Shown here piece after piece: positions 13,638 through 63,385 of a DNA stretch of 64,000 nucleotides (positions within the stretch are counted from its first letter, which is position 1; each line of letters opens with the position of its first letter). Source of the DNA: a virus. The position numbers and the translations under genes are program-made. The stretch spans positions 310,001-374,000 of the IMG/VR virus record IMGVR_UViG_3300028654_000001; one strand, 5' to 3'. A model generated the notes under the pieces. It was not told the origin of the DNA. It made no database searches and saw only the letters and a program-made list of their open reading frames with translations.

Positions 13638-14452
13638 CAGAAGTCACCCGAATGATTTTCAGCAACCACAACTCGGTTGATCTTTACACCGAGCCTATCG
13701 ATATCAAACAAACCTCGTGAGTACACTCGCAGATCTTCATAGCAGTAACTGGACATGTCTCCTCTACTGGCATCAAGGATCACACCCCCTTGAGTTGGGT
13801 TTGGGTTATAGGTATCAGTAAAGATGTACCTAATTGTGTACAGTGTATGTGCAGGTCTAATAATGTCCAGGAGTAGCCTAGTGTTTGAGTCAAGAGCAAA
13901 CACATTAACTGGGAAACCTGTAGTAGTGTCCGTTACATCGACCTGAAAACCAAATTCATCTGAGATATCAAGACCGGAGTTTGGATCCCTGGCAATCAGG
14001 AAGTTTTCGAACAGTAGAGGACCGCCAGAGAAGAACAGATCTACAGCTTCTAGCATCGCCGGTGGAATGGCCCCCTCGAAGTAGATTGCAATCACATTGA
14101 GTAGGAATGTTCGGAACTCCAAGTCATCATAGTTTGTATCTGGCAACTTGTTGTTCAAGAAAACCATGTACCCAATGATACTGTACAGAAAGTCTGTACG
14201 GGTCTTGGTAAAGTCCTGATCCGAGTTGACATCCTCCAAAGAGAGCTCGATGCGAGCCAGCTCAGTAGCTACTGCCGAAAGCTCTACTGAGTAATTTGGG
14301 CCTTTAATGGTGCTGATGTACGAACTGGGCAGGAAATCCATCAAGTTAGTGAAGATCGTCTGAGCTCGTTGAATGAGCCTCAGGTTGTACTCCTTCCCAG
14401 ATTGACTAGTTGTGAGGTTTAGCCTATCTGGATCTGTAACGAATCTGGGCAT
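13637..14452 (-). CDS. Tail protein I-like baseplate component
   Basis: 271 residues, starting with TAATG overlap to the upstream J-like gene. The first ~100 residues (RAQTIFTNLMDFLPSSYIST ... VATELARIELSLEDVNSDQD) resemble the helical start of phage tail protein I / baseplate wedge proteins that count off 'LPSSY...' and 'ELARIE'. The rest is beta-rich (RLLLDIIRPAHTLYTIRYIF), with the RPAHT motif commonly seen in tail protein I and YmfQ-type proteins. Position directly after the J-like protein matches Mu/P2 order (J then I). Assignment rests on motif and order. Confidence 0.7.
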   Translation of the reverse strand: MPRFVTDPDRLNLTTSQSGKEYNLRLIQRAQTIFTNLMDFLPSSYISTIKGPNYSVELSAVATELARIELSLEDVNSDQDFTKTRTDFLYSIIGYMVFLNNKLPDTNYDDLEFRTFLLNVIAIYFEGAIPPAMLEAVDLFFSGGPLLFENFLIARDPNSGLDISDEFGFQVDVTDTTTGFPVNVFALDSNTRLLLDIIRPAHTLYTIRYIFTDTYNPNPTQGGVILDASRGDMSSYCYEDLRVYSRGLFDIDRLGVKINRVVVAENHSGDF

Positions 14453-17400
14453 TAGGTGCTCGATGCGTAGGTGATGGTAAAGTTACCGAGTTCTACGAAC
14501 TCAACGTCAGCTGCCTCAATGTCATGGGATCCTGAATCCCCACGAACCACATAAGAAACTGTGTAAGTGTGATCAACAGGGAGGTCTACCGGACTCCCAG
14601 ATCCCGACAGGGAGATCACCACATGGTTCGCAGTCCTCCTCAGTAGCTCAGCTTGTTGAGTAGCTGCTGTTGTGAAACCGGCGGCTACCAGAGTAGCTGT
14701 ATCGGTATACCCTAGGATAACAGCACCCCCAGATCCGATGATGTAAGCTTGGTTAGCAGCCGAAGCCAAAGTGGAGAGCACTCCAACCAAGGTCATAGCC
14801 TCATCGTCTTCAAATACACCCTTGTGCTCTGTAATTAGACCCCCACCATCCGTGGTAGGTGAGGTCAAAGCATTGGTTAGGATGTAAACTACATTTGCTC
14901 CAATATCTAAGGATGGGAGATGCAAGTAGGCTGAGGTTATAGCCTCACGGAGCTTGCGTGACCCGTCCGCATAGGCCATCAAAGCCATGGGCAACACTAA
15001 GAAGCCGACACCCGGGGTCCCCTGGATAGCCCCAACGATACTGGACTGAGCCAGACCCTGTCCAATTAGTCTCGTGTTGGAGTCGTTGCTGACGTCAGAG
15101 CGAACAGCAGGATCAGTAGTATCTTTGGTTGACCCAGATTTTAGCTCCACCGTAACTTCTAGATCGACTAGATTCTCAATGGCCTCTTTGATGATTACAT
15201 CAGCCGTAATGTGACGAGTAGAGTTGACTGTCCTCTGGAGTTGTTGCAGAAGATCATTGATTACGTAGTTAACTGTGAAGTTCTCATCGTGGACATAGTC
15301 AACAGAGACTGTGGCCCCATTGACGATATCCGATGTGGCTGTCCTTTGGATAGCCGCTGGGGTAGTCGGAGTTCCTGCAATGACTTCATAGTCCGGGATA
15401 GTAGCTGTTGGGCCTTCGTATTCTATTGATCGATCAACACTAAAGACTCGAATAGTATCAGTATTTATCCCGATGCTTCCGAGAGGTATTGCTTGAGACC
15501 CTACCAATACATGGGATTCAGCATTCACTTGAATTGTATTGCCTGAGGGGACCCCATTAACTTGATTGATGGATAGGTAGTCGTTGGAGATCGTGCTTTC
15601 ACCATCAATGAGTGGGTCATCAACCTTGTAGAGAGCGTATCCAAGAGAGTTATCCAAAGCACCGGATACCTCTCCTATAACCGACACTACTCGCCGAACA
15701 GGTTGAAAGCTGAATATGAATCGATTATCAACACGGAAGCGGTAGTCAGCTGTCACCACATCATCGAAGTTCGTTACAACTTGACCTGATAGTGTGGGGT
15801 TCAACTTAAAGGTCCTGTAGTCGATGAGTTGGACTCCAACAAGGAGGTAGTCCAACCCTTGGGTCACATTCCTGACTCCGAGACCTTGTGTCAAGTTATC
15901 CAGGATCTCTGTGATCGGATTGTTCAGGGTGACTCGACTATCCTGAACCTGAAAGATCAAGTTAGTAGCATCAATGATGGTACATCGAATGTTGGTAGCT
16001 ACTTCGAAAGTGAAGGCAAACTTCTCAGTAATTTGTCGTTCCTTGAGACCTTGCGTCCAGATATCAACCTTGCCCCCAATGTGCTTGTGACGGACAGAAT
16101 CATAATCCCTCATCATGAGGGGGTCCCCGCTCTTGACTATCTTTGCCTTGACTATTCCAATTTGCTCTGCAGAAGTTGAGGCATACCCACCAGAGGTTCC
16201 ACTATCTACTGAATATCCAAGGAGGCATCTGGTAGTAAGATCCGCATTACTTTCGAGGTCAGACCCGAAGACGGTGGCATCGTTGTTGATAACTTGGAAA
16301 CCTGGAGCTCCAGATACGTTGGTGATCTGCCCAGCTGGTCGGTTACCATCTGAACCGGTTGTCTGAGCAACTATGTCAACGGTTATCTCGTAACGCTTGG
16401 TATCGAAGTTGAAGTAGGAGTCGGCTTGAGCAGCCAACATGATATAAGAGCCACCAACAACGAAGTTGACGGAAGGGATCCCAAGAGAGGAGTCCGCATT
16501 AGTCGATACAATGGTCCCAGTGGGTACCGGGAGGTCAAATGAGGGGCGCGTATATGTGTAGAAGGTTTCTTGTCCAACTGACGGCCTTCCAGGAAGCCTC
16601 TTCTTACTGATATTTCCAGCTAGCTTGTCGAACCCTGAGTCGATGATACTCTGAACTGCATCATCAGTTGTATACCCCAAGGCAAACTTAAGAGCTGTCT
16701 TGTAGGCACTCCCGGAGACAGGATCCGAAACTCCATCCCCATTGGCGTCATCGATCTGAAGAAGAGTAAGGAAACTTTGAGTACGGTGAACGAAGTCCAC
16801 CAAGAAGTAAAGACGCTCGGCTTCTGAGGTAAAAGGGTCAATCGAAACATCCCTTGTTGTCGACCCTGGGATCAAACTCACAAGAGCATCAACCCTCTGA
16901 ATCGAGTTGACGAAATCAGTCAGAACCTGAAACTGAGTCCTACCAGGAAGAGTTCTAATCGACGTGTCCAGGATGAGTGGTGTCCCCAAAACTTCTTGAG
17001 AGAAGGCACTCTCTATCTCGTTTCCAGTTAATGGATCATAATACACGCCAGTTACGACATAGTACAATGGATCTGTATCGGAAACAGCCGAGAACTGGTC
17101 ATCATTAATACTATCTGAAGTTCCCGATCGATTGTGCTGGAAGACGATGTACTCAATAAGTTGGTAGTCTTCGAGGGTAGACTTGAATCGGATGCTCTCT
17201 GTATAAGCCGATGTATTGTATGTAGTATCGAGTTGGGTTGCTAGTTCAGTACCAAACTCATCCTTTTGAGTCAGCTTGACCTCTAGAAATTGGCTACCAT
17301 TAGGGAATATCGTTTGATTAGCAGCAAATTGTGTAACCTTCTCATCAAAGGTTGTTGACTTATTTGTAACGGTTGCTGAATTGATTCGGTAGTATCCGGT

Positions 17401-17898
17401 AGTCCCACCTGCTGCTGTAGAGGCGTAGTAATTGTAACCTATGAAGTTGCTTGGAAGTGGGACACCGCTGGTACTAAATCTCTGTGCTGGCAAGGCGACA
17501 AATATGTTGACAACATCCTTAACCCTACTCACCTTGATTCCAGATGGGGTCTCCACCTGAAGGACATTCTCTTGCAGAACAAGGGTGACAGAGATAGTTG
17601 AGGCAACACTAACCCCACCAGCAATGTCTATTGTTCTAACTAGGATAGTGTTGGATCCAGGAGTCAATACCAAACCATCAGGGTAGCTAGATTGATTTGG
17701 AATAGTGAAGTTTGGGAGATCGAAGTTTACGAGGGTTGGATCTGAAACGAATGGAGCCCCGTTGATAGAAACCTGAATGTCTGAGGTTAGGTTGTCTACT
17801 GTCCCAGTGATGACAATAGCCTCTTGATTCGTTGAAAACACTAGGTTGGTAGTGAATCCAGAACCATCTCTATATGCAATCTGTGGAGCTTTGGCCAT
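14452..17898 (-). CDS. Baseplate J-like wedge protein with long N-terminal extension (1148 aa)
   Basis: The Baseplate_J signature is present around residues 505-560: EITVDIVAQTTGSDGNRPAG followed by QITNVSGAPGFQVINNDATV and the GGYASTSAEQIGIVKAKIV segment. J proteins form the wedge ring that opens on contraction. Usual J proteins are 300-400 residues, so this one carries ~480 extra N-terminal residues, including a bacterial-Ig-like domain (NTILVRTIDIAGGVSVASTI) and fibronectin-like stretches, plus an extended C-terminus with LVDLEVTVELKSGS and Ala-rich segments. The gene sits 3 nt after the gp25-like gene and overlaps the tail protein I-like gene. Confidence 0.85.
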   Translation of the reverse strand: MAKAPQIAYRDGSGFTTNLVFSTNQEAIVITGTVDNLTSDIQVSINGAPFVSDPTLVNFDLPNFTIPNQSSYPDGLVLTPGSNTILVRTIDIAGGVSVASTISVTLVLQENVLQVETPSGIKVSRVKDVVNIFVALPAQRFSTSGVPLPSNFIGYNYYASTAAGGTTGYYRINSATVTNKSTTFDEKVTQFAANQTIFPNGSQFLEVKLTQKDEFGTELATQLDTTYNTSAYTESIRFKSTLEDYQLIEYIVFQHNRSGTSDSINDDQFSAVSDTDPLYYVVTGVYYDPLTGNEIESAFSQEVLGTPLILDTSIRTLPGRTQFQVLTDFVNSIQRVDALVSLIPGSTTRDVSIDPFTSEAERLYFLVDFVHRTQSFLTLLQIDDANGDGVSDPVSGSAYKTALKFALGYTTDDAVQSIIDSGFDKLAGNISKKRLPGRPSVGQETFYTYTRPSFDLPVPTGTIVSTNADSSLGIPSVNFVVGGSYIMLAAQADSYFNFDTKRYEITVDIVAQTTGSDGNRPAGQITNVSGAPGFQVINNDATVFGSDLESNADLTTRCLLGYSVDSGTSGGYASTSAEQIGIVKAKIVKSGDPLMMRDYDSVRHKHIGGKVDIWTQGLKERQITEKFAFTFEVATNIRCTIIDATNLIFQVQDSRVTLNNPITEILDNLTQGLGVRNVTQGLDYLLVGVQLIDYRTFKLNPTLSGQVVTNFDDVVTADYRFRVDNRFIFSFQPVRRVVSVIGEVSGALDNSLGYALYKVDDPLIDGESTISNDYLSINQVNGVPSGNTIQVNAESHVLVGSQAIPLGSIGINTDTIRVFSVDRSIEYEGPTATIPDYEVIAGTPTTPAAIQRTATSDIVNGATVSVDYVHDENFTVNYVINDLLQQLQRTVNSTRHITADVIIKEAIENLVDLEVTVELKSGSTKDTTDPAVRSDVSNDSNTRLIGQGLAQSSIVGAIQGTPGVGFLVLPMALMAYADGSRKLREAITSAYLHLPSLDIGANVVYILTNALTSPTTDGGGLITEHKGVFEDDEAMTLVGVLSTLASAANQAYIIGSGGAVILGYTDTATLVAAGFTTAATQQAELLRRTANHVVISLSGSGSPVDLPVDHTYTVSYVVRGDSGSHDIEAADVEFVELGNFTITYASST

Positions 17899-27945: not shown

Positions 27946-30123
27946 CTAAATAGATCCAATCAAAAGACTACCTTGTAGTGGTAGGCCGGTCAACCAATCC
28001 AAAGACGGGCTGCCCGGCGGCATCATAGGAACCCCTCTTGCTACACCAAGGACTGCTGCTGGGCCTCCAAGCATTACCTTTGGAGCGGTGAGGGCAATGA
28101 TAGTTGCAGCAGTGAGGTTCATTGCAAGACCAGCCGTAATTGCAATAGCACCCAGGCCTGCACTCATTGAAATAGCTCCAGCTGCTGTAGAGATAGCTAC
28201 TGCCCCAGCCGCCGTCGTAATAGAGATGGCTCCCGTACCAACCGTTACTGAGTAGGCACCAGCGGGACAATTGACAGCTACTGCCCCAGCCGCCACGGTG
28301 GTGGTCTTCGCTCCTACCAGAATGTTCTCTACGTGACCCCCAGCGAGGATTGTGCATACCTTCCCACCAAGAGCTACTGTCTCCTGATACAGCAAAGCGT
28401 AGTAATTCTGAGTCTTACCAGAGACAGTTGCATTCCAACCCCCCACATTCGCATTAAGACCATTGAGGCCGTGTAGGTTAATCGTACTAGCCTTGATAGT
28501 ATGACTACCATCAACTGTTTTCTGGTAGGACCCCTTGACTACTTGGAGATCAGTACCAGAGATATGAGTCTCATTGTTCCCTTGGACATCCACACTATGT
28601 GCCACATCATCCACAGAGTTACTGCCACCTCGGAAGATGTTCTTGATTGCCCCTCGGAAGTTGGTGGTAATGCACTCACCGTTGGCATTTGACCCAACAT
28701 CCAGGAATATCCCACCATCACAGGTTAGATGAATTGAATAACGATCAGGAGTACAAGCTCCAATACGAGCCTTAATGGCTCCTTCTAAGTTAGCCTCAAC
28801 AGATACATTCTTTGTCGAATAGTTCTCGCTCGAAGATCCTGGGACATTTATGAATAGTTTCCCCTGCTTAGAGACGGATACAGCAAACTGGTTCTTGGAT
28901 GCTGCACGAGGAGGCGAAATCCGGAACAAGTAGGCTGCGGCCATCGAGAGAGCCTCGTCGACCGTGGTGCTCGGCGGACGAAGGCACTCGTCCAAAGAAA
29001 ACCCGGTAGGGGCCGCAGTCTGGTCGAAGTCCTCGAATATCTTAGGTTTTAGTACCTTTCCGTACTGTCTCTGACCCAAGGTGGAGAACGGGTCATTCCC
29101 AACCACCGTCCCAAACACCTGTTCGATGTAGGCTCGAGGGCGATCAACTCCGAACCCATCGAGCTCCTCAAGTACCTCGGACTCAAGATCGGTATCGTGC
29201 CGAATCTCCATCCTACGTTCGGTAAAAGCCCTAAGAGTCCCACCATTTGTAGAATCTTCAAAGTTGGTTGCCGCATTCCCTGAAGCGTAGAAGACCTGCC
29301 TGCTGTTCGAGTATACGATGGGTGGGAATTCAGTGTTATCGTTGATTCTGTCGAGGGCCGCAAAGGTGGTCGGGTTGACGAAGGTGGATCCAGATACCCC
29401 AGCCGCAATCAAATCATCTCGTCCGAAGTACCTCGTGCTCTGATCTCGAACAATATTGGTATGGTTACCCTTGGAGTCAGTCTGAAATATCTCTAGGGGG
29501 AGGTTCATTGCCCCCCGGCGCACCGCTCCCGAGAATAGATAGGCCGCTGAGTCAGACTCAACCCTGTGAATAGATTGGGTGACTAGAGTTCGGTCTACAT
29601 CACGGAGCTCAAAACTGTCCCCTGCACGATTGAAGAGCCGAACATCCCTGGACATCAGGAACTCGGCGCCCGCCGCGGACATCCCGATGATGTCCCCAGG
29701 CTTCCCTTTAGCTCTCTTGTATCGAATGGTGGGTCCGTACATCTTCTCGACGTCATCCACATCCTCAGCGTCCACCTCTCCTGGGGGTATCGCTGCGAAC
29801 GGGTCGAACTTCAAACCCATAAGGGTTCCGACCGGGATGTACCCTAGGATGACTGCTCGGTAGAACTGCTTGCTAATCTTACGGTAACCAATGACAACAA
29901 CGGAACCCACTTCTGGGATCCCACCGAAGAAACTCCTCGGGCCTGCCATTGGCTGAATGAGATCCAATTCGAAGCGTACTTCAGACCCACTGATGACCTT
30001 CACGTCTGCTTTGAGGTGGATCTCATCTACTCGAGTGATGATCCCAGCCTTCAGCCCTGTGAAGTCGTTGTTGGCGAAGTCCGATTCAGGAATACTACCA
30101 GCAGGATGAGTCTTGCCCTTCAT
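27946..30123 (-). CDS. Baseplate central spike, gp5/VgrG-like with beta-helix tip
   Basis: 725 residues from the ATG at 30123, chosen because GGGTGA lies 5 nt upstream; a GTG at 30132 (GTGA overlap with the hub stop) is the alternative. The N-terminal ~20-110 region is an OB-fold-like module (AGIITRVDEIHLKADVKVIS; PEVGSVVVIGYRKISKQFYR). From ~560 the sequence becomes a beta-helix: short repeats such as GAVAVNCPAGAYSVTVGTGA and ISITTAAGAVAISTAAGAIS, the pattern of the trimeric needle of T4 gp5 or VgrG. It follows the hub gene as expected. The T4-type lysozyme domain is absent; an M23 peptidase is supplied by another hub gene. Confidence 0.85.
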   Translation of the reverse strand: MKGKTHPAGSIPESDFANNDFTGLKAGIITRVDEIHLKADVKVISGSEVRFELDLIQPMAGPRSFFGGIPEVGSVVVIGYRKISKQFYRAVILGYIPVGTLMGLKFDPFAAIPPGEVDAEDVDDVEKMYGPTIRYKRAKGKPGDIIGMSAAGAEFLMSRDVRLFNRAGDSFELRDVDRTLVTQSIHRVESDSAAYLFSGAVRRGAMNLPLEIFQTDSKGNHTNIVRDQSTRYFGRDDLIAAGVSGSTFVNPTTFAALDRINDNTEFPPIVYSNSRQVFYASGNAATNFEDSTNGGTLRAFTERRMEIRHDTDLESEVLEELDGFGVDRPRAYIEQVFGTVVGNDPFSTLGQRQYGKVLKPKIFEDFDQTAAPTGFSLDECLRPPSTTVDEALSMAAAYLFRISPPRAASKNQFAVSVSKQGKLFINVPGSSSENYSTKNVSVEANLEGAIKARIGACTPDRYSIHLTCDGGIFLDVGSNANGECITTNFRGAIKNIFRGGSNSVDDVAHSVDVQGNNETHISGTDLQVVKGSYQKTVDGSHTIKASTINLHGLNGLNANVGGWNATVSGKTQNYYALLYQETVALGGKVCTILAGGHVENILVGAKTTTVAAGAVAVNCPAGAYSVTVGTGAISITTAAGAVAISTAAGAISMSAGLGAIAITAGLAMNLTAATIIALTAPKVMLGGPAAVLGVARGVPMMPPGSPSLDWLTGLPLQGSLLIGSI

Positions 30124-30128
30124 AAGTG

Positions 30129-33100
30129 TCACCCGAGCAGAGCAAGTTGTGTCTGCTTGTTATGTAGATCCTGGGTTACTGAGTTGATCTGCTGTTGAAG
30201 TTTCATTGCTGAGTCCTCCCCCAACACCTGTACTACACCAGGGATCTGAGATGAGGATAATCTGGAGTTCAAGTTCGCTAGTTGTGAGCTGAGATTAGAG
30301 ATCTCCTGTGACAGCTTGGCCTTCTGGGTATTCTTCTTCAAGTCTGAGCTAAAGTTGGAGAAGGTCTGAGCTAGGTCTTTCTTTGAGGACTCGGCCTGTT
30401 GAGCCGTAGCAAGTGGGTCTCCTAACGCAGCCCTGTTTGGGGAAGAGAATGGAGGGGTGAAGTTCCCGAATGTCTGATCCTGTGGGCTATCCATGAATAA
30501 TGAGGGTTGTTTTCTGATATCTGGTTCGAGTCCCGATGGATCCCCACGAAGTTGATTCTCGAGTCTTTGATGGGGCTCATCCAAAGTTTTGTACAGATTG
30601 AAGAGGTACGTCTCAACCCTATCTATGAGATTCTGCTGTTTCAACCAACTTGGCAGAGGATTGGTTTGGTTATTCAAGCTAAGGTTGTTTGAGCTGTCCT
30701 GGAACCCACCAATGGGGTTACCATCCTCGCCAGTAACTGTGTTGCTTACGGTGTTGGTTCCGTAGAGGGTTTCACCGGAGGTACTAGTTGCTGGTGTGAC
30801 TGGGGATACCTGGTAGCCAACGCTGATGAAGGTCAAAGAGGCTCGGCCTGTTTGACATTGACACTGCTTGTTGCCGGCGTAGTCGTTTGACTTAACCGTC
30901 ATCTCGGCGAGGGTTAGTGCCCTAGAGAGTTGGGATGCTTCTACACTGGTAGGAAAGCCCCGGGCCTCAGGGGATGATAGTGGGGCCGTGTCCACGAAAT
31001 TGTTGCCTACGTCAGAGAAGGCTGGGGTCTTGGCTCCATTTACCCCAGGAACGAGCGAGGCTGCCGTCTGGAGGTCTTCTGGGATGAGACGTGCAACAGT
31101 GTCAGCTGGATTCGAATAGGAGGTTGTGATTGATGTGAGGCCCTGGGATTGGGCAGTTAATGTCGAGAACAAGTCCCCACCGAGGGCCAGCTGAGTTCCG
31201 ACATTGACGCCGGTATTGTGAGCACCCTCGTTGAGAATCAAGGATCCATCCCTGAGGGATACCCCGCGCCCGTACCTAAAGTGACCGATGACCTCAAAAC
31301 CCCTCTCATCCGAAACAGGGCGTACCATGGTGTTCGGGTTCTTAAGTTTAATACTGGTATCGAGAAACTTACCAGGAGCCCCACCCTGAGTAACCGAGAT
31401 GTTGTTGTAGGGCAACAAAGCAAACTGAGTGATCACCTTGTCTACATCTTGAGCATAAACGTAGACACCCGCCGAGTTTAGTCCGTACGAGAATCGATTA
31501 TGGTCATACTTGTTTGATAGATTCAGGGCCGTGTCAGGGTCGTGCTCTGCTTCTGCAATCGTCTTGTTTACAGCCTGTCGTTGAGCAACCATGTTCTGGT
31601 TGTTCTTTGGAACCATGGGGTTCTTGTCTTTTTCACCAGCGATATTCGAGAAGGCTGCCTTAGGGTCATAGGGTCTGGTGTAGACCATCACAACATTTGG
31701 ATAACCAACGATGTTACCTGTCTTTGGATGCCGAAGAACCAGTGGTTGATAGGGATCGAGGGTTCTAGGGTCATTGGGATCAAACTTGATCGGGGGAATT
31801 GTTGCCGCCTCACCCAGGTCAAGATTGAATGAGGTCTGAGCTAACTTTCGTACTGTTAGTGGTTCAGTGGCCTTCCCAGTAGAGGTCGCGGGTACTGCCT
31901 TCTTTGAGGAATTCTTGGTGCCAGCCTTGACAGAACTGATGTCGTGGGTTCCACCTCTCTTGAGAGATGAGATCCCCTTTGGAGCGATGAACTTTCCACG
32001 TTTTGCTGTCAGATTCAATGAGGTCGTTGCACGACCACCAAAGGAGATGTTGTGATTGATCCCTTTCACATACCAGATCTGATCCAAATGGGATAGGTAG
32101 ACAGGAAACCCAAGCCTGAGCTCAGGACGGTGAGGTATGGTAACCGACATCTGAACTCTGTCCGAGTTGATTCGATCAAGAATATCCAGACCGTGGTAGA
32201 ACATCCTGGTGGTGTCACCCATGAACTCTGAGTTGTAGGGCCTCGAGCGCCAGCCATACTTCCTCAAGAGATGGTAGTCGGTAACGCTGGTGAAGGGTGT
32301 TGTTTCTGGCCCTAGTCCATAATCGGTATTGCCCCCAAAGTTACCCTGGACAATGAGTTGAGTGATGACCCCTGACTCAGAATCGGTAATATCGTAGTCG
32401 ATGATATCGATCGGTTGAATCCAAGAGATGGGCTTGTTGGCTAAGATATCAAGGTTGAAAAACGGTGGCTTGAATACTATGTCCCCAGTCACATCCATAT
32501 AGAACTCGAAACCAACCGCCGTCTTACATGCGTTGGCAATCTCGAGCTTGCTCTGAAAGTCTGACTGCCAGAACTCAACCTCACCCGCTGAGCTGAACTG
32601 GGTTCGGAAAGCCGTTACCCCAGGGTCGGTTGGATCGAAAACAAGCTGTGCAGCTTTATCCCCTCCATTGGCAGAGCGTACGCAACTAGCAATGGTCTGC
32701 ACACCCTTCTTGAACTTCCCAGAGTCATATCCGTGAGCAATCGAGTCCCCACGGACAGCAATCCCGTTCACCCCATAGAGGAGTAGACTTGATCGAATCT
32801 TGCTGAACCGGCTTGACCAATACAGCATAATGTCACCAAGAGCTGCATTGAAGGTGGACTTCTGAGTATTCTCTTTGTTCAAAGAATTGAGAGACCCTGT
32901 AGCGACGATGATGTCACCAAACGCCATATTGGACAGCGTGTAGATGAGGTCGTAGACATTGGTACCGTAGAGGGTGTTACCGTAAATGGATCTCCCCAAT
33001 TGAGGGCTAGCCGCGGTGAAGGCCGGGCTAATGTTCATCATGCAGATCTCCCACCACTTCAGGATATCTGCGCATTGAATAGTGACCGTATGCTCACCAG

Positions 33101-50881: not shown

Positions 50882-50931
50882 CAGATTCTCCGGATCTACG
50901 TAGATGGCTTTCAATAGAAAGGCAAACGGTT

Positions 50932-52945: not shown

Positions 52946-55900
52946 CTAGATCCTAGCTCTAAGGTTGAATGTTAAGACGATATAGAGCAAGGGAAAAATT
53001 GGAGCATAATATGCTACAGCATTCAATATCGTTGGATCATTAGGATCTACCGTAGCGGCGATACCGGTGAAGGCCGAGACGATCTCCTGCTGGATCAACT
53101 GCTTGAAGAGGGAGGTCATCGAGACCTCGACTTCATTGGTTCGACTCGACAGGAACTTGGTACCTACGTACGCGTCAAGGACTGACCTGGAACTGATCGA
53201 GACGTAGTCAGCGATCTGGGTTACCGTGGGCAACCGGGTCAGGATGTTCGTCATGTTGGTCGTGAGACCCTGACGGATCCGGATGATCGGCTGCAGATCT
53301 TCCAGGATTGTGATACCAGCCGTGGCCGTTTGATTGGCTTCGACCGGATCCATGATCCTGGGAATCTGGGTGAACCCTTGGAGCTGACGCCTCGTGTACG
53401 GGGTAGCAACATCCACAGCCGGGGAGCACACAGCACCGGCGACGGCCGCCGCGAAGAAGGTCCCATCCACCAGAGACTGGTAGGTGTTCCCGAGCTCGTC
53501 GGTGAAGGTGACTACTACCGAATCCGGGTAGAGAGCCACGATTCTCGAACTGAACAAGGACTTCGCAATGGTCTGAGCCACGGTGGGGGTTGTTCCACTG
53601 GCAAATCCGATCATACCCATCCGCTCACTCTGGTTGCGAATGTTTGACATGACTTCACAGTGCTGAGTCAGGTACGAGTACACTGCTGTATCCGTGCTGA
53701 GGGGCACAATGACGTCAGGCTTGACGTTACCGGGAAGAGGAGCAGCCAACCCTTGAATAGCCGTTATGAAGGACTGTGCAGAGGCCTGGTTCGTATTTGG
53801 AACCTTGAGAACCTGCTTGATCCCGACAAGAACAGCACCATTGAGGATGGCCAAGTAGGCACCCAGAGTAACCCTGTTCTCAGCATTGAGTGGGCCGTAA
53901 ACACCCTCAATAGTCTTGAACTGAGAGTACAGCTTCGTCGAGAAGTCCTGCTTCATGTAGTAGTAACTAATGAAGTAGAAATCCCCGTTGGCGGGCTCAA
54001 CCCCAGAAGGATTGAACGTCTCGATGTTAGCTGTGTCATTCACTCCAATCCCAACCGTATTGGCCACGATGGTCTCGAGGCCCGGAATTGAATAGAATGG
54101 CGCTCCTGGATTCACAGAGAATGTCTGTGAAGCAATCAGGGTGAAGTGGCCTGCACTGTCGTAGTGCCCAGTGGTAGACGGTAGAATCGTGAACCTAAGG
54201 CCTGTACGAGCATCCGTATAGGTCTGACCTGGGTACCCTATACCAGATGATCCATTGACCGTATCCGAAGAGGTAACCGCAAATTTGTCGGTGGCATCCT
54301 CACCATCGTCCCCAGAGATCCCAGGAACAATTCCAGTCCCAGTGAGGGTATTGAAGGCCGTAGAGGCTACGAACCCAATGCTGCTGGTGATGCCCGTCGT
54401 CAGGGACTCAATGGTGACATAAGTCTGGCCATTGAGGGTTGACGGATAGGCAACTGCACCAGTATCGAACCCAGATGTGCCCATGAGGGAGTCAACTACC
54501 TCTTGAGCCGATACCAAAGTCTGGCTCGCGAAAGATCCTTGGCTGAACCCAAGGAGGGTATTCGCTGTACCATCACCAATCAGAACTGCAGACTGAGTCT
54601 GATTGGTGTTACTTGTGATCCGGATCTTACCAGCATTTGCTAGAGTACCGTCAGTAGCCGAACCTTGTGAGGTTACTACGGCATTGATCTGTTTAGCAAT
54701 TACACTCGCTGACATTGACTCGATGTCAATCGAAATCGTACCATCGAAGGTAGCTGTTGGGATAATGCTCAACGAACCAGTGCTGGTAGCTGTAACCGAA
54801 ATCACAGTTGTGTCCGCTACCCCTGCAGTTGTGACACCACCAAAGACTACGTCAACTGTACCAGCTGTTGACGTGATGGTAATGGTAATGGTGTAGACTG
54901 CACTAATTATAGCAGCTAGTGGGTTAACCAAAGCTGCTACATTACCAACACCAGCCGTATGGGTGAAGGTATTGTAGGTTGTCGTCCAATTAGTCCCAGT
55001 GTACCCCGTGGTTGGTGTAATCCCATTAGAGAGGGTTGTTGTGAAGTCAACCCCATTGAGCCTCACCTGGAAGGTGTCATTCACACCGGCAACAACTGTA
55101 AAGGGTTCTGCAACTGCTCCCAAGATGGTTGCAGGCTTGTTGACGGATCCTGTAGTTCCAAGAGCCTGTTCAAAGGTCTTGAACCCAAGTAGGGTCTCTG
55201 CCGTGCCTTGAGCAACATAAACTGAGCTGACAGAATCAAACCCACCGGGAAGTGCCCCAGGGGTCGTGTTGCTCTTGATCAGGAAGAAGGTTGAGGTTCC
55301 GCCGAATGCCGGTATAGCTGTTGCAGTGGCGGGAGTGATAACACCACTAATAGCCGATGCAACTGTTGATGGGGTTCCTGATGTCAGGGTTACTGTATGA
55401 GCAACCCCATCAATCACTAGGTTCAGGACATCATCTACCCCAGTGGTGAATACAACATCACCGCCGGTGAGGACAACTGCCTGACTAACCAGAGTAGCAG
55501 GTCTTGTTGTAAGTAGATTGGTGCTTACCGGAGTACTATTGACATTGGTGATCCAAGTCGCTGAAGCTGAGTAGAACGAGTAAGGCTGGGCCCCTTCGTT
55601 CGTGTAGACAGCATTGCGTGCCGGAGCCTGACCAAAGGTCACTGTAACGGTCTCTGAAACTGGTGCCCCAGCTCCCGTGTAGAGTGCATCCGGGATATAT
55701 TCAACACCACGGGGCCACTGCACGATCTCTGAGAGTCCACCCTTGGTTCCGAATCGAACCTGGTATAGGTTCGTATTCAAGAGTGAGGAGAACACGGTGT
55801 ACTGCCCAACCCCTACCGGGCCGGCAACCGTATTGGTCAGGATATAGGTATCATCTTCGATTCGGTTGTAATAGAACGTCGCGTAGACATTCCAATCAGC

Positions 55901-57463
55901 CGGAATAGAATCCCTCAGAGTGATCTTTCGGTTTGAACCGTCAACTGCAACTACGGTAGCTGCTGGATGACCTAAGGCATCCGAGAGGGTTCGACCTACT
56001 CGAGCAATGACCAAGTCGGGACGGTTCGTGACCACATCTTGTCGGCTATTGGTAACTGACGAGAAGAGGGCAGAGCCCAAAGTCGTGTCTCTACCGTTAC
56101 CTGTGGTGGGGATCTCAGGCAATAGAAACACTGTGTTACTGATCACAGCTGGGATGACCGAAGTATCTGCAAACCTAGTGCAAGGTGCCAGATACATCTT
56201 GTTATCAACAAGAGTCGGAATGATCTGAGTGTTGTCGAAAGGGGTTGCACCAGGAGTCTGCAACGTAGAGGATACCGAATAACTGGTACCCCAGTGGACA
56301 ATCGAGACATCCGGAGTCGGGTTCTTAATGACGAAGTCCGCACCCTGAATGTAGTCGGAACGTCCAGGACTGATGCCTGCCCTGATGACACTAGTCACCA
56401 ACGGGTTTGGCAAATAGTCGAAAGTATCCTGCCAGGTATTCGCCCAATAGTTGATCGTAACAACGGCTCCTGGAGGAGGCGCGAGAGTCAAAGTTACAAT
56501 ACCGTTGGTACCATCCACAGCTGAGGGGATTACCTGGACGTTGTTCACCTTTACGACAACCTTTGAGGTGTCAGTTGTGGTGATACCACCAGAGGTTCCG
56601 TCGACGATCGGGCGTTGGAACACCCTGAACTGAGTGTTACCACTCACAAGCTGATTACTCGAGAGACCAAGAATGCCATTTGCATTTCCTGAACCGATCT
56701 GAATCGAGGAGACCGCTGTGAGCTGTAGGTGAGTTGCATTTTGATTGTCAGTGAATACTGATGCAACTCCAACACCCAAGGCTGCTGTGATCTGAGTCAC
56801 TAAGCTTGCAGTAGAAGCAGTGGGAGAAGCCTGGAATACAACTGTCCGTAGGGATCCACCATTGAGGGCTACCTGAAGGGTGTCATTCACACCAGTGATA
56901 ATGTTGAACGGTCCAAAACCAGGGGTGATGATCGTCTGAGGGGCCTCACTAACCTGATAGGACACATTATCCGTAAAGGCCGTGTCAGAACGGTGGAAGA
57001 AGTATGTTACCCGAACGGTGTCCGATGGCTGAGGTGGTACTTGAAGGGTTAGGATACCAGCAGAGCCATTGACGGACCCCACCGCGACAGGAGAGCCATT
57101 GACGGTAACGGTCACATTTCGAACATCGTTTGTGACTCGACCGAAGCCCTCACCATCAACTATCGGAGTGTTCCGAACTCTGAACTGAGTTCGGGTACCA
57201 TCCTGAGCACCCAAAATCGGGTTACTTGGATTTGTAGTGTCCACAATCCATTCAGCGGAAACGTCTTCATTGACGATCTGCTCGTCAAGAGTAGAGGAAG
57301 ATCCTCTAACCATCTCGAGGTCGCTTACCTGGAGTTGTTCTTGACCTACACCGATTATGAAGGGAATACGAATGCCAGCTACGAGGGCTGCAACGTTTGC
57401 ATCGGTTAGTGTGCGGGAGTAAACACCTGGTTGAACATATGTCGAAAATGGTCCCAAACTCAT
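52946..57463 (-). CDS. Tail sheath protein, giant form (1505 aa)
   Basis: Strong ribosome site TTAGGAGAT 7 nt before ATG. The N-terminus MSLGPFSTYVQPGVYSRTLT is a typical sheath opening (x-Y-V-x-P-G-V-Y). The C-terminal ~400 residues carry the conserved sheath domain: FYFISYYYMKQDFSTKLYSQ, KPDVIVPLSTDTAVYSYLTQ, IRNQSERMGMIGFASG, SRIVALYPDSVVVTFTDELG, DGTFFAAAVAGAVCSPAVD, PYTRRQLQGFTQIPRIMD and IRIRQGLTTN. Between them are ~1000 extra residues of Thr/Val-rich beta domains (repeated DTFDYxPNPL, AVxVGVNDTxQVxLNG types) forming insertions on the sheath surface. T4 gp18 is 659 residues, so this is over twice the usual size. The subunit contracts to drive the tube. Confidence 0.9.
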   Translation of the reverse strand: MSLGPFSTYVQPGVYSRTLTDANVAALVAGIRIPFIIGVGQEQLQVSDLEMVRGSSSTLDEQIVNEDVSAEWIVDTTNPSNPILGAQDGTRTQFRVRNTPIVDGEGFGRVTNDVRNVTVTVNGSPVAVGSVNGSAGILTLQVPPQPSDTVRVTYFFHRSDTAFTDNVSYQVSEAPQTIITPGFGPFNIITGVNDTLQVALNGGSLRTVVFQASPTASTASLVTQITAALGVGVASVFTDNQNATHLQLTAVSSIQIGSGNANGILGLSSNQLVSGNTQFRVFQRPIVDGTSGGITTTDTSKVVVKVNNVQVIPSAVDGTNGIVTLTLAPPPGAVVTINYWANTWQDTFDYLPNPLVTSVIRAGISPGRSDYIQGADFVIKNPTPDVSIVHWGTSYSVSSTLQTPGATPFDNTQIIPTLVDNKMYLAPCTRFADTSVIPAVISNTVFLLPEIPTTGNGRDTTLGSALFSSVTNSRQDVVTNRPDLVIARVGRTLSDALGHPAATVVAVDGSNRKITLRDSIPADWNVYATFYYNRIEDDTYILTNTVAGPVGVGQYTVFSSLLNTNLYQVRFGTKGGLSEIVQWPRGVEYIPDALYTGAGAPVSETVTVTFGQAPARNAVYTNEGAQPYSFYSASATWITNVNSTPVSTNLLTTRPATLVSQAVVLTGGDVVFTTGVDDVLNLVIDGVAHTVTLTSGTPSTVASAISGVITPATATAIPAFGGTSTFFLIKSNTTPGALPGGFDSVSSVYVAQGTAETLLGFKTFEQALGTTGSVNKPATILGAVAEPFTVVAGVNDTFQVRLNGVDFTTTLSNGITPTTGYTGTNWTTTYNTFTHTAGVGNVAALVNPLAAIISAVYTITITITSTAGTVDVVFGGVTTAGVADTTVISVTATSTGSLSIIPTATFDGTISIDIESMSASVIAKQINAVVTSQGSATDGTLANAGKIRITSNTNQTQSAVLIGDGTANTLLGFSQGSFASQTLVSAQEVVDSLMGTSGFDTGAVAYPSTLNGQTYVTIESLTTGITSSIGFVASTAFNTLTGTGIVPGISGDDGEDATDKFAVTSSDTVNGSSGIGYPGQTYTDARTGLRFTILPSTTGHYDSAGHFTLIASQTFSVNPGAPFYSIPGLETIVANTVGIGVNDTANIETFNPSGVEPANGDFYFISYYYMKQDFSTKLYSQFKTIEGVYGPLNAENRVTLGAYLAILNGAVLVGIKQVLKVPNTNQASAQSFITAIQGLAAPLPGNVKPDVIVPLSTDTAVYSYLTQHCEVMSNIRNQSERMGMIGFASGTTPTVAQTIAKSLFSSRIVALYPDSVVVTFTDELGNTYQSLVDGTFFAAAVAGAVCSPAVDVATPYTRRQLQGFTQIPRIMDPVEANQTATAGITILEDLQPIIRIRQGLTTNMTNILTRLPTVTQIADYVSISSRSVLDAYVGTKFLSSRTNEVEVSMTSLFKQLIQQEIVSAFTGIAATVDPNDPTILNAVAYYAPIFPLLYIVLTFNLRARI

Positions 57464-58402: not shown

Positions 58403-58840
58403 TTATATGCTAGTTTTAGCTTCAGGTTGCTTCTCCATTGTTACTGCATAGTCCACAAGTCTACCCCTGGCCTCCCTTTCAGCTGGGCCCATTGCAAGGT
58501 ACTCGGTATAACCTTCACCATCAACTCTAGATAGTGCAGGACTCTCACCTACCGTGCGGACTTCTCGCTTGACACGATCCCGATTTCTATAGGTTGACCA
58601 ACGTTCCTCAGCACTACGCCCAACAATCTTGTCAGCAGTAGGGTAATCTTGGTCATGAACTCCAGAGTTAGCCGGAGCTGAACCCCCTGGTGCGAAGCCA
58701 AACCCGAAACTACTTCCATCGAATAGCCTTGGGGCATCGTCAGCACAAGATGGGCACTCGTGAGTCGGATGTGCACCCATCTTCAGGGTCCGATCAAATC
58801 TTGTTCCGCATATCTGACATTCAAATGTGTACTTTGGCAT
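58403..58840 (-). CDS. FmdB-type zinc ribbon protein (145 aa)
   Basis: Starts MPKYTFECQICGTRFDRTLK, the FmdB/CxxC zinc-ribbon opening, with the second pair CPSC at 30-33. The rest is charged and probably disordered (SFGFGFAPGGSAPANSGVHD; RSAEERWSTYRNRDRVKREV). FmdB-like ribbons are common in large-phage genomes as small putative regulators, but their role is unknown. It lies between the neck protein gene and the GIY-YIG gene, and its end runs into a CATATAAAGG element. Confidence 0.75.
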   Translation of the reverse strand: MPKYTFECQICGTRFDRTLKMGAHPTHECPSCADDAPRLFDGSSFGFGFAPGGSAPANSGVHDQDYPTADKIVGRSAEERWSTYRNRDRVKREVRTVGESPALSRVDGEGYTEYLAMGPAEREARGRLVDYAVTMEKQPEAKTSI

Positions 58841-58852
58841 CGTGGTCTCATT

Positions 58853-59995
58853 TCATGTAATTCGTTCATAGTTTGCATTTCTACCAACGATGATGGGTAC
58901 CGTTGAAAAGAAAAGATCAGTATCAGAAATAACCTTAATCCCAGAGGTCCCATCCGGTTGAGTTGCAGCCGAAGCCCCACTGATCGTGAAAGGTAGCGGA
59001 ATGTGAACTTCCCAGTCTGACTGGACCTGGATACTCATCGAGGCTGTATAGTAAAAGGTGTCGGACACCTCATCATAAGCCTCTTCGGCTTCACCACCGA
59101 TCGATATTTCAGTGATCTCCAACCCCTCAAAGGATAGGTTGGGTCTCTTCTCACTCCAAAGAGACATGTGAGCATAGTCGGCCATCTCTTCCATCTGCAT
59201 GGGGTCCTGAGCTATGATATCGATGTCAAACGATACCTCGAACTTCCCACCATAGGCTGTCGCGGTGTCTACACGGTCATCATAGACAACAACCGCAACT
59301 TTGTCCCCCTTCTTACCTCGTTTTCCAAAGGCTAGGATAACTCCTGGAAGAGTCCTCCAGTCCGCGGTGTTCCACTTCCACTCAATAGGCCCAATTGACT
59401 CCACTGGATAACGATAATCAGCGGTCAAGATCTGACCTGGCAACAAATCCGCCGTAATGGTTATCTCACCTGTTGAGTAATCTACCGTGTAGTCTTTACC
59501 CTCATAGAACGGCAACTTTCTATTGATCCAGATCCGAAGTGTACCTTGGATCGGAGGAGGCTGAATAAGAGCATGGCTTTCAACCCCGGACACAACCTGA
59601 AGCAACGGAAAATCAGTCACGGTCAAAAGGGGGTCTATTACGAAGTGCCCTATCTCATTTGGGTTGGTCGGAGCGTCCAGGCACTCTATATAATAGACCC
59701 CCGCTGGAATCGGCATCGAACCCCCGTTGGCCTTTACTGTATTCACATCCTCCTTTACCCACTCCAAGATATAGGAGGGGGTATCGAAGTAGGACAGCAT
59801 GACGTGACTCTCAACAGTCCCTAACAGGTTTTGAGCAGACAACTTCAGGTTGTTTGCAGAGGACCCCTTAACAACGATACCGAATGCTGGTCGTTCGTCG
59901 AATGCATACTTATTTTGTATAAATGGAACTACCTTCTCATATACTGGATGACGAGAAAAGCTATCCTGAAGCTCAAGAATGAGCCTCCTCTTCAA
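58853..59995 (-). CDS. Neck / tail-completion-like structural protein (380 aa)
   Basis: Best start is TTG at 59995; the AGGAGG just downstream of it makes the start uncertain. The N-terminus RRLILELQDSFSRHPVYEKV VPFIQNKYAFDERPA and the NPSYILEWVKEDVN-like segment with VYYIECLD recall neck and sheath-terminator-type proteins. The body is beta-rich (IEWKWNTADWRTLPGVILAF GKR; VSFDIDIIAQDPMQMEEMAD YAHM). Upstream of the sheath gene, where contractile phages encode tail completion or sheath terminator (gp15-like) proteins. The family assignment is by context and resemblance, not a sure match. Confidence 0.55.
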   Translation of the reverse strand: MKRRLILELQDSFSRHPVYEKVVPFIQNKYAFDERPAFGIVVKGSSANNLKLSAQNLLGTVESHVMLSYFDTPSYILEWVKEDVNTVKANGGSMPIPAGVYYIECLDAPTNPNEIGHFVIDPLLTVTDFPLLQVVSGVESHALIQPPPIQGTLRIWINRKLPFYEGKDYTVDYSTGEITITADLLPGQILTADYRYPVESIGPIEWKWNTADWRTLPGVILAFGKRGKKGDKVAVVVYDDRVDTATAYGGKFEVSFDIDIIAQDPMQMEEMADYAHMSLWSEKRPNLSFEGLEITEISIGGEAEEAYDEVSDTFYYTASMSIQVQSDWEVHIPLPFTISGASAATQPDGTSGIKVISDTDLFFSTVPIIVGRNANYERIT

Positions 59996-60211: not shown

Positions 60212-61231
60212 TCAGTCGTACTCTTGATTCGCGAGAACCAAGAGACCTTGTGCAACTGCATTCATTTGGTCGTTTGCTAGCCTAACTTCAGAAATCTTGA
60301 GTGGAAAACCCTTAACCTTTTCCTTCTCGAACTCTTCATTGAAGACATCCAAGAAACCCTTAGCTAGGGTTGTCCCACCTGCTAGTACGATTGGGATCGG
60401 GTCATCCAGTTCTACCCCACTCTGATCTTTTCTAACCTTCTTTGCTATATCCACTAGGCAGTTGTGGATCAGAGTTCTCACATACAGAGCAATAGCCTCA
60501 GCATCTTGGTTATCCTTGGGTGGATCCGATAGATTAAACTCACCACGCTCCTTAATTGAGCACATACGGGAAGCCGTTGATCCAACCGCCTTAGCCGAAT
60601 GTTCATCAATCCAATCACCACCCCCACGGGAAATTGAGAAGCTAGTGCCCATCACAGCTCTAAACGCAAGAGCCACGTTACACAAGCCTGCACCAAAAGA
60701 GATCGCTAACCCGGAGTAATTAGAGTTAGAGCACTGAGAGTAGATGATCGCCATGGCCTCATTCGTCGGATGAGCCTTGTACCCACTGACCTCCAAGATA
60801 TTTTTGAATACTTCGGTGTGGTAGGCAACATCCTGGCCAGGAAGATCCATGGGCTCCGCTGGCACGCTGTAGTAGCAGTGCTCTCCTGTAACTGAAGGCT
60901 CTTTGAGAATTGAGAAAATCAACTTGTTAAGGACCACATGAAGTTTGAGCTCACCGGGGGAAATCAACCCTTTAGAGAGAGGCCTGCGTACCTCCCTCTT
61001 GAATAGATTTGCCATCTGAAGAGCTGGTTCACCCAATACGATCAATTGATCTGGGAGCTCTATATGACTAACCCCACTCATCTTCAGGGTCTTCTTGGAA
61101 TCGAGATCCAAATCGATGAAGGCATCCCTCATCACCTGAATGTCAATTCCACCACTTGCAGTATTTCTGGCACAAATGAAGTTCATTGTGCCGACATCTA
61201 ACCCTACTCCGTACTTTGATCCATTTGACAT
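60212..61231 (-). CDS. Actin-fold ATPase (MreB/ParM/Hsp70-like)
   Basis: 339 residues, the usual size of bacterial actin homologues. Phosphate-1 motif YGVGLDVGTMNFICAR at ~7-22, phosphate-2 motif SGLAISFGAGLCNVAL around 172-188 (the conserved D of DxG is replaced by F-x-A-G, so it is variant), connector-like SRGGGDWIDEHSAKAVG, and adenosine motif PIVLAGGTTLAKGF at ~278-292. Such proteins polymerise to position DNA or assemble structures, or act as chaperone-like ATPases. It sits between a Dps-like gene and neck genes, so a virion-assembly or positioning role is possible. SD AAGG 8 nt before ATG. Confidence 0.85.
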   Translation of the reverse strand: MSNGSKYGVGLDVGTMNFICARNTASGGIDIQVMRDAFIDLDLDSKKTLKMSGVSHIELPDQLIVLGEPALQMANLFKREVRRPLSKGLISPGELKLHVVLNKLIFSILKEPSVTGEHCYYSVPAEPMDLPGQDVAYHTEVFKNILEVSGYKAHPTNEAMAIIYSQCSNSNYSGLAISFGAGLCNVALAFRAVMGTSFSISRGGGDWIDEHSAKAVGSTASRMCSIKERGEFNLSDPPKDNQDAEAIALYVRTLIHNCLVDIAKKVRKDQSGVELDDPIPIVLAGGTTLAKGFLDVFNEEFEKEKVKGFPLKISEVRLANDQMNAVAQGLLVLANQEYD

Positions 61232-61268: not shown

Positions 61269-61964
61269 TCAGACCTTCCAAGGGTCTGAGATGAGTCTCT
61301 GCTTGAGAAGGTACACGTGTGACTCGTGCTTGTCCTCAACTCCTGCAAGAAGGTTGTCTGCCCCTCGAGTAAGCTCACCATGGTTCTTCATCTCGGCAGC
61401 GATAGCAGCCAAGCTTGAGATGAAGTGTTCCTCAGCCTTGAGGCTTGATTCCATGAAAACGTGTGGGTTAATCTCTTGTTGGGCAAGACCATCACCACAG
61501 AACATGTGCACGGTCTTGGCAATCAACGAAGCTTGAAGTCCCGGGTGCAGCTTGTCCTTAGGGCAACCCAATCCAACAGCCTTCTCGGCAATCTGATCTG
61601 CTTCCTCAGCAGTCTCGTTGTAGAGCCTTTCGAAGAGGAGGTGATCGGCGTAGTAAGTATCCCCATAAGTCAGCCAGTGGTGTCCTTGATGGATCTGAGC
61701 CAAAGCTCTCACGAACACGAGGGCTGTAGGCAACCCAAGACCTTCACCGTGGGCTAACTTGGAAGCAATGGTGTGTGCTGTCTTCATCGAGGCTGATTTG
61801 TCCATTCGAACTTTCATTCCGGGCAAGTAAGGTGGCCCATGAAAGAAGGGGTTGTATGACGATGGATCTTGCCAGATCACGAAAGTGGCATCATCCGGTG
61901 GGGTGTTGGTTGGACTAACACCTGGATGCTCTGGATTCGGACGAAAGAAGTCTGAATCAGTCAT
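61269..61964 (-). CDS. Dps/ferritin-like protein (231 aa)
   Basis: The segment at ~80-130 aligns without gaps with the Dps signature: HHWLTYGDTYYADHLLFERL and ...EEADQIAEKAVGLG correspond to HWNxRGxNFxAxHEMLDxF...HLDTxAERAxQLG. Ferroxidase ligands H, H, D (as E), D and E are all present. The ~60-residue N-terminus is Pro-rich (FRPNPEHPGVSPTNTPPDDA) and the C-terminus ends in a helix (YLLKQRLISDPWKV). Typical Dps is ~165 residues and forms a 12-mer that oxidises and stores iron. It overlaps the WKYTD-repeat gene by ATGA. Structural incorporation in the virion is a possibility. Confidence 0.85.
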   Translation of the reverse strand: MTDSDFFRPNPEHPGVSPTNTPPDDATFVIWQDPSSYNPFFHGPPYLPGMKVRMDKSASMKTAHTIASKLAHGEGLGLPTALVFVRALAQIHQGHHWLTYGDTYYADHLLFERLYNETAEEADQIAEKAVGLGCPKDKLHPGLQASLIAKTVHMFCGDGLAQQEINPHVFMESSLKAEEHFISSLAAIAAEMKNHGELTRGADNLLAGVEDKHESHVYLLKQRLISDPWKV

Positions 61965-63385
61965 GTCAGCCTATCTTCCAATTGCTTGGAGATGACAGCT
62001 GCAACAATGGCTAACCTCTTAACCTTTGGCTGTAGCCCAGCCAACAGGAGAGCCGGGTACTGAGTAGAACCCTCACCAGCCTCTTTGAGACTGAAAGCAC
62101 TCTTCTGAGCCTCACCTAGCGCAGCTAAAACCTCATTGAATGCGTTACCTATGGCCACGATAGCGGGGTGTTCATCACCAGCAGTGATGAAGTCCTCTGC
62201 AATGACTGAAGACTTTCTGAACCATAGGTGAGGGGCTAGGGTGTTGGCGGGAATTGACTTCTTCATATAACGAAGGATCTCTTCGTCATTCTTCACCTCA
62301 GGTCGACTATCATCGACCACGATCTTGTCCCCTTCCCACTTAGCGAAGTTCTTGCCTCCCAGTCCATTCTTTTCGAGTTCCTTGCCATCAGTGGTGAGCA
62401 TCCCACCATGAGCCGGTTTCCTCTCATAGAAGGCATCAACAACCTTCTTCTCGGCTGCAGTCAGGGCTGCGGTAACTTCTGTGGCGGCAAGTTTCACAAG
62501 AGCATGAGACCTCTCGAGACCATCGGGCTCCTTGAGTCTTTCAACCAACTCAAATGGCCCCACCCCCTCCGCTTGAAGAATGATAGCGTCCTTCGGGTCA
62601 TATCCCTTAGAGGCCAGCAAAGCTTGTAACTCTTGAAGCTCGGCCTCTCTGGGGTCATAAACTGGCTCTGTTGGCTCCCCAACCTCGCCCAACGCTAGCC
62701 TCTCGGGATCCGCAATGAACGACTTTCCGGTATAAGGAGACTTCATAGAACCCTTCCTACGAAGAGCCATGTAGAATTTCTGCCCATCCGAGTCCGTGTA
62801 CTGCCATATAACGTTGGTCTTGTTACCTTGAGCTCTAAGCTCTTTGGCAACCGCAGTGAGGTTAACTCGAACTGGATGGCCAGGGAAGGTACTCCCGCTA
62901 AAGGGATCTCGCATCATACCAGCCCTCTTCTCAGGAAGATAGAAAGTTACCCCATCGTCCCCCACATACTTCCACAAGACCGTGGAAGCTGCAGCTGTCT
63001 TCTCAGCTTTGTTGATCTCCCCAAAGTTCATCTTCTCACCCTTTGGGGTAAAGCTTCTTCCTGTGTAGGGAGACTTCAACGTTCCGGTGACCCGCTCCGG
63101 AAGGTAGAAGGTGGATCCGTCACCATCGGTATACTTCCAGAGAGCCCCCTTGACCTTGGCCTCATCCTCCTTGAGTTCCTTGCCAACATCCGAGAGGGAA
63201 GATCTTTCAGGATTAGCTGTAAAGGACTTACCAGTGTGCGGGGACTTTAACGTTCCAACTTTCTTCTCTGAGAGGTAGAAGTCCTTGCCCTCCTCGTCTG
63301 TGTACTTCCAGAGCACTGTAGCCGCGATCTTACTTTGAATGGAAGCCGCTCGTGCTAAAAGTGCCTGCTTGGGATCAGTCGTCAT
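61961..63385 (-). CDS. Protein with four WKYTD-type repeats (474 aa)
   Basis: Residues ~20-235 hold four repeats of about 50 residues: VLWKYTDEEGKDFYLSEKKV GTLKSPHTGKSFTANPER, then ALWKYTDGDGSTFYLPERVT..., VLWKYVGDDGVTFYLPEKRA... and VIWQYTDSDGQKFYMALRRK. The shared core W-x-Y-x-D-x-D-G-x-x-F-Y-L-x-x-x-x-x-G-T-x-K-S-P-x-T-G-K-S-F looks like a small beta-hairpin domain with a terminal SxYTGKSF loop. The rest (~235-474) is mixed helical with a Leu-rich C-terminus (YPALLLAGLQPKVKRLAIVA). I do not recognise the repeat. It is coupled to the Dps-like gene. Confidence 0.8.
   Translation of the reverse strand: MTTDPKQALLARAASIQSKIAATVLWKYTDEEGKDFYLSEKKVGTLKSPHTGKSFTANPERSSLSDVGKELKEDEAKVKGALWKYTDGDGSTFYLPERVTGTLKSPYTGRSFTPKGEKMNFGEINKAEKTAAASTVLWKYVGDDGVTFYLPEKRAGMMRDPFSGSTFPGHPVRVNLTAVAKELRAQGNKTNVIWQYTDSDGQKFYMALRRKGSMKSPYTGKSFIADPERLALGEVGEPTEPVYDPREAELQELQALLASKGYDPKDAIILQAEGVGPFELVERLKEPDGLERSHALVKLAATEVTAALTAAEKKVVDAFYERKPAHGGMLTTDGKELEKNGLGGKNFAKWEGDKIVVDDSRPEVKNDEEILRYMKKSIPANTLAPHLWFRKSSVIAEDFITAGDEHPAIVAIGNAFNEVLAALGEAQKSAFSLKEAGEGSTQYPALLLAGLQPKVKRLAIVAAVISKQLEDRLT
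62680..63325 (-). repeat. Four in-frame ~150-bp coding repeats (WKYTD unit)
   Basis: Each unit encodes a W-x-Y-x-D-x-D-G-x-x-F-Y core plus an SPxTGKSF tail. Nucleotide similarity between units is patchy, which means they diverged long ago. Units lie roughly at 63325-63190, 63150-63010, 62990-62850 and 62830-62680. Confidence 0.75.

Follow-up and report, generated by a model that had tools for sequence, protein, structure and literature searches.

The 231-aa protein encoded at 61269..61964 on the minus strand (ATG start) of a large virus record is a divergent Dps-type ferritin. It belongs to a previously unnamed Dps family that we found only in large viruses, many of them on contigs above 200 kb. 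The window, by which we mean the whole 64,000-base stretch analysed, spans bases 310001-374000 of the 512,571-base record. A first-pass annotation, made from the letters alone, had called this ORF Dps-like, and matches in sequence libraries and the PDB, an AlphaFold2 model with its Foldseek matches, and the conservation of the iron ligands all bear out that reading.

Homology to Dps

The window protein is matched by PHROG 3636 (2e-8) and by NCBIfam DpsA (8e-8), the latter at 32 bits against a cut-off of 300, and it is therefore not a DpsA orthologue. Pfam Ferritin (PF00210) scores it at 2.6e-4 and 21.4 bits, under the curated cut-off of 24.5, so automatic annotation would miss the gene; hence our term divergent relative. 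Some members of the family do pass this cut-off (G068 at 26.3 bits and G008 at 25.1). Pfam DUF5856, below its cut-off, and PHROG 3636 match the same B-helix region weakly, and we found no mention of DUF5856 in the open-licence literature.

A phmmer search of the PDB has Dps proteins as its best matches (3e-6), and the profile of the family itself scores the window protein at 5e-12. As a control, a Dps profile was built from ten non-family sequences, of which nine are plasmid-borne and the tenth lies on a contig labelled Staphylococcus phage. It gives the window protein 42.4 bits, its reverse -2.4 and the best of 2000 shuffles 6.7, and every one of the 71 distinct viral domains exceeds 15 bits. 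Together with the structural results below, these values exclude a chance resemblance.

Fold and iron ligands

Single-sequence AlphaFold2 prediction reached a pLDDT of 38, and a model based on an alignment of 21 sequences was used instead. Here residues 78-224 (61293..61733, minus strand) form a Ferritin/Dps domain with pLDDT about 90 over most of its length; residues 1-74 are mostly of low confidence. Helices are predicted at 78-98, 104-131, 141-156, 167-194 and 200-224, the one at 141-156 lying between B and C beside the four long helices, as in Dps. Foldseek's list of 50 PDB matches consists of Dps-family proteins, with TM scores mostly of 0.66-0.80 by target length. The structure prediction that the first-pass annotation had proposed as a check thus returns the four-helix ferritin bundle, complete with the BC helix of Dps.

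Dps iron ligands sit between two subunits. In the window protein the corresponding block, residues 96-127 (61584..61679, minus strand), holds H96, H108, E112, D123 and E127, of which we take H96, H108, D123 and E127 to be the equivalents of the inter-subunit ferroxidase ligands H31, H43, D58 and E62 of Listeria. The spacing, H96-(+12)-H108-(+4)-E112-(+11)-D123-(+4)-E127, is that of cellular Dps, and the segment bounded by the HW and AER/AEK motifs aligns to cellular Dps ungapped, as claimed at the outset. The four residues are invariant in all 71 distinct relatives; outside the ligands, the family sequences diverge to about 30% identity. Judged by its residues, the window protein would therefore have the inter-subunit ferroxidase site that marks the Dps family.

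Position 112 varies among the 71 domains (27 Q, 27 E, 9 D and 5 S). Two histidines and three acidic ligands with one D replaced by E had been described earlier, and this is what we see. The replacement is an ordinary one: D, E and Q all occur at the D47-equivalent position of 11 sampled Dps from outside the family, so E112 needs no explanation, and this residue is not strictly defining for Dps.

Cellular Dps such as Nostoc Dps4 (5hjh), Thermosynechococcus DpsA (2vxx) and Staphylococcus Dps (2d5k) share with the viral proteins the four-helix bundle, the BC helix and the HW...H...D/E/Q...D...E ligand block at identical spacing. They differ in being only about 20% identical to the viral clade, which adds the near-invariant residues H92, D107, E178, H213, Q222 and R223 (71 distinct domains). 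An intra-bundle site of bacterioferritin type (E178, H213/E214) was considered and rejected, as helix B has no matching conserved residues.

A family found in viruses

Two pattern scans of IMG/VR yielded 162 and at least 185 confirmed loci in overlapping sets, and the best 80 loci of each scan were examined. Among 50,697 annotated phage records there was one full relative, in the 485-kb LR745208.1. Two pattern scans of 85,462 cellular species returned no relative, with short exact patterns that could miss a divergent cellular one. Each record carries one copy of the Dps-like gene.

The comparison with other Dps suggested by the first-pass annotation sets the viral sequences apart: when eleven other Dps are included in the tree, all viral rows fall on one side of a branch (94/89). 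This branch and the empty cellular pattern scans argue against recent acquisition from a host. The neck-module members, described below, are grouped in one clade (98/94), which also takes in a single stray row from another context. Close relatives are under strong purifying selection, with a median dN/dS of 0.08 over 21 close pairs.

The gene lies in a conserved virion module

The Dps-like gene is translationally coupled to its upstream neighbour, as first proposed: an ATGA overlap at 61961-61964 joins it to the gene for a 474-aa WKYTD-repeat protein (61961..63385, minus strand), a homologue of which occurs in many, though not all, neck-module loci. The reported actin-like neighbour is equally real, an actin homologue (Pfam Volactin, PF25216, 1.7e-61; 60212..61231, minus strand) that starts 37 bp downstream. 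On the same strand follow the 380-aa conserved module protein c9 (58853..59995; weak DUF2460 match, 1e-3), placed after Volactin in nearly all loci, an FmdB-like zinc-ribbon protein conserved in the module (58403..58840; PF09723, 3e-9) and a 1505-aa module protein with ends that look sheath-like by eye (52946..57463), again in conserved order. Comparisons of the 1505-aa protein as a candidate tail sheath gave no PDB, PF04984, hhalign or T4-type sheath match, and we call it only sheath-like. Neither c9 nor the 449-aa neck-like protein gave a useful PDB match.

The neck genes named in the first-pass annotation drew a weak match, PHROG Neck1 at 1.4e-3 for the homologue in locus L001; its wider placement in a tail or virion block stands, since the block includes homologues of a baseplate wedge protein (14452..17898, minus strand; PHROG 6, 5.9e-16) and of a baseplate hub/tail lysozyme (27946..30132, minus strand; PHROG 694, 5e-6). 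With a terminase at 416 kb of the record, these genes support its assignment to a tailed phage. The tail block also holds a 1470-aa helicase (46502-50914; PHROG 1967, 6e-71) and, by eye, a GIY-YIG-like endonuclease (57562-58308). Mn-catalase is absent from the record, and we noticed no other antioxidant gene beside the Dps-like gene.

Among the best 80 Volactin loci, 56 show the order neck-like, (WKYTD), Dps, Volactin, c9, zinc-ribbon and sheath-like. Another 18, with enough flanking sequence, have no Dps at this place; in four of these records it is found at a different site. A Dps-like ferritin within a virion-gene block, as noted for the window, is thus an arrangement whose synteny is conserved across dozens of relatives. 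The Volactin-type homologue (window 60212-61231; L113-L192) itself represents a large family of big phages, with 486 IMG/VR loci in one scan, and nearly always precedes c9, the zinc-ribbon gene and the sheath-like gene. Such a fixed association of an actin homologue with a tail module merits study in its own right.

An N-terminal motif in place of a basic tail

Ahead of the ferritin domain, the window protein carries the motif W31-Q-D-P-S-S-Y-N-P-F-F-H-G-P-P-Y-L-P48 (61821..61874, minus strand), a putative docking tail. In general form, W-x-[DNETH]-P-x2-[YF]-x4-7-[GA]-[PA]-P-[YF]-[LMF], it is present in 44 of 53 neck-module members and in none of 53 other family members; since the pattern was written after the sequences had been seen, the first count is descriptive and the absence elsewhere is the informative part. 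All 70 motif-bearing ORFs in the fetched loci are Dps-like. The motif, WxDPxxYxxxxxGPPYLP in short form, is therefore confined to one sub-clade and context. The N-termini of known Dps point outward, so a cage would display twelve copies.

This motif stands where cellular Dps may have a Lys-rich tail. Such DNA-binding tails are found in some Dps only and do not define Dps overall; the Agrobacterium protein (1o9r) reportedly, from its entry title, protects DNA without binding it. The tail of the window protein is not of the Lys-rich type: it has no net positive charge and a pI of 6.0, and the domain has a pI of 5.7. This speaks against DNA binding, and the DNA protection envisaged in the first-pass annotation finds no support in so far as it would act through direct binding. 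We thus consider it highly improbable that the protein is a histone-like Dps that condenses phage DNA. Some Dps do bind DNA, and certain relatives from head clusters have very basic segments attached, but these segments are confined to another sub-clade.

Contexts and fusions across the family

The Dps-based scans gave 71 distinct domains, which occur in varied surroundings. Eighteen are in the neck-Volactin module and one in a module with sheath-like genes, nine are in head clusters, four beside terminase and four beside GroEL-like genes; 24 lie among metabolism genes, 12 of them at 2-3.6 kb from a Volactin gene, and 11 elsewhere. Within head gene clusters, L046-L051 encode proteins of 356-363 aa that end in the Dps domain. 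In L037, L041 and L043 the domain ends proteins of 650-1040 aa with long Arg/Lys-rich stretches and a pI above 10. Among the Foldseek matches were Dps-fold viral proteins annotated as prohead protease.

Some neighbours and fusion partners deserve mention for themselves. The N-terminal part of two fused proteins (L037, 3298-6417; L041, 3763-6414) has an HExxH motif, in the form RHELVHAVQ, as in zinc metallopeptidases, and in L022 (6465-8015) the Dps gene is immediately preceded by a gene for a WLM-type metallopeptidase (PF08325, 2.7e-16). In the metabolism context, the Dps-like gene of L009-L021 overlaps by 4 bases a conserved gene of 350-385 aa with weak HEAT-repeat similarity.

Possible roles in infection

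The place in the module, the sub-clade motif and the fused and head-cluster relatives suggest some use in the virion or its assembly. We propose, with about even confidence, a ferroxidase mini-cage that is made late, renders iron and peroxide harmless and is tethered by its N-terminal tails to a virion or assembly partner. A Dps-type mini-ferritin would be made from the late virion-assembly operon, a timing that we infer from gene position only. Its subunits would form the Dps dimer and 12-mer, and the inter-subunit site would oxidise Fe(II) with peroxide or oxygen and store the ferric mineral. Late in infection, this would prevent Fenton chemistry near newly made phage DNA and particles. The twelve outward tails would tether the cage to a partner from the same operon, at a guess a neck protein or the actin homologue; direct DNA binding through a basic tail would play no part.

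Alternatively, the protein or its cage may be a component of the virion, in the neck, the tail or the capsid interior, where it would enter the cell or stay with the packaged DNA and where iron chemistry may be secondary. We hold this to be a minority possibility. Its fixed spot in a virion module fits, as do the 13 of 71 members in head clusters or beside terminase, the 19 more in the neck/tail module, the basic fusions and the prohead protease annotations. A purely structural protein would not need the iron ligands, however, all of which are kept; a tetrahedral 12-mer has no obvious fit to a ring-shaped neck; and the members among metabolism or beside GroEL-like genes, as well as phages that have the module without Dps, also weigh against it. 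A 'ferritin' has been detected by mass spectrometry in proteomes of Vi01-like phages, where it was named from Phyre2 threading (PMC10892097). We rejected it as a precedent: no Vi01 gene in the part of the genome tested matched the family, Vi01_204 is LemA-like by eye, and its equation with gp217 is a guess.

More speculatively, Dps cages might dock through WxDPxxYxxxxxGPPYLP to the neck/actin module and elsewhere use Arg/Lys-rich DNA tethers, so that a ferroxidase is built into the virion or delivered with it. We offer this idea tentatively, as one that has a smaller share of our confidence than the tethered mini-cage.

Relation to known phage Dps

Other phages encode Dps-type ferritins too, among them the Lactobacillus phages Iacchus and Semele (PMC6669764) and gut Gratiaviridae and others (PMC8008677), the Gratiaviridae being likened here by description; both reports read the protein as an oxidative-stress tool that shields the infected cell from iron and oxygen damage. 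The Iacchus protein is placed outside the viral clade, at the end of a very long branch, and is encoded close to genes of DNA metabolism. In the open-licence literature, neither a 2021 study that compared 224 jumbo phages (PMC7824862) nor a 2026 review (PMC13282480) mentions Dps or ferritin in its main text.

By extension, the window gene could encode an ordinary cytosolic Dps, an auxiliary stress protein for which the operon sets late timing only and whose tail has no partner. Besides the published cases, the metabolism-context relatives, which lack the motif, would suit such a role. The separate branching from the sampled other Dps and the lack of a cellular relative in the pattern scans count against it, however, as does the conservation of the motif in a single context, and we regard it as unlikely.

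Phage Dps have so far appeared as scattered auxiliary genes. The family described here is a separate clade, found only in viruses, with at least 185 IMG/VR loci. In one sub-clade Dps is wired into an actin-homologue virion module and has a conserved tail of its own; in other sub-clades it lies in head clusters or forms part of fusions with basic proteins. A cage present in particles would mean that a virus delivers a ferritin-type enzyme; a cage absent from them would show giant phages to be controlling iron and peroxide at a late stage of infection. The named motif and the short list of possible partners make the system testable in either case.

Module phages with other ferritins

The notion that Dps is a general requirement of Volactin-module phages was rejected, as some large ones are without it. 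In two such phages of about 400 kb no ferritin was detected, which argues against an essential structural role; Dps is dispensable there. Two of four large module phages without Dps (G058 and G060) carry a bacterioferritin-like protein instead. In this small sample, the substitution hints that iron chemistry is the selected trait. Although of the same superfamily and found in phages with the same virion module, these proteins differ from the viral Dps: they are of ExxH type, are unmatched by the viral Dps profile and are encoded beside an SbcC/RecF-like gene. Bacterioferritin-like genes with an SbcC/RecF-like neighbour by eye are seen in L214 (7775-8380) and L215 (8070-8564), from two 300-440-kb phages that lack the Dps-like gene.
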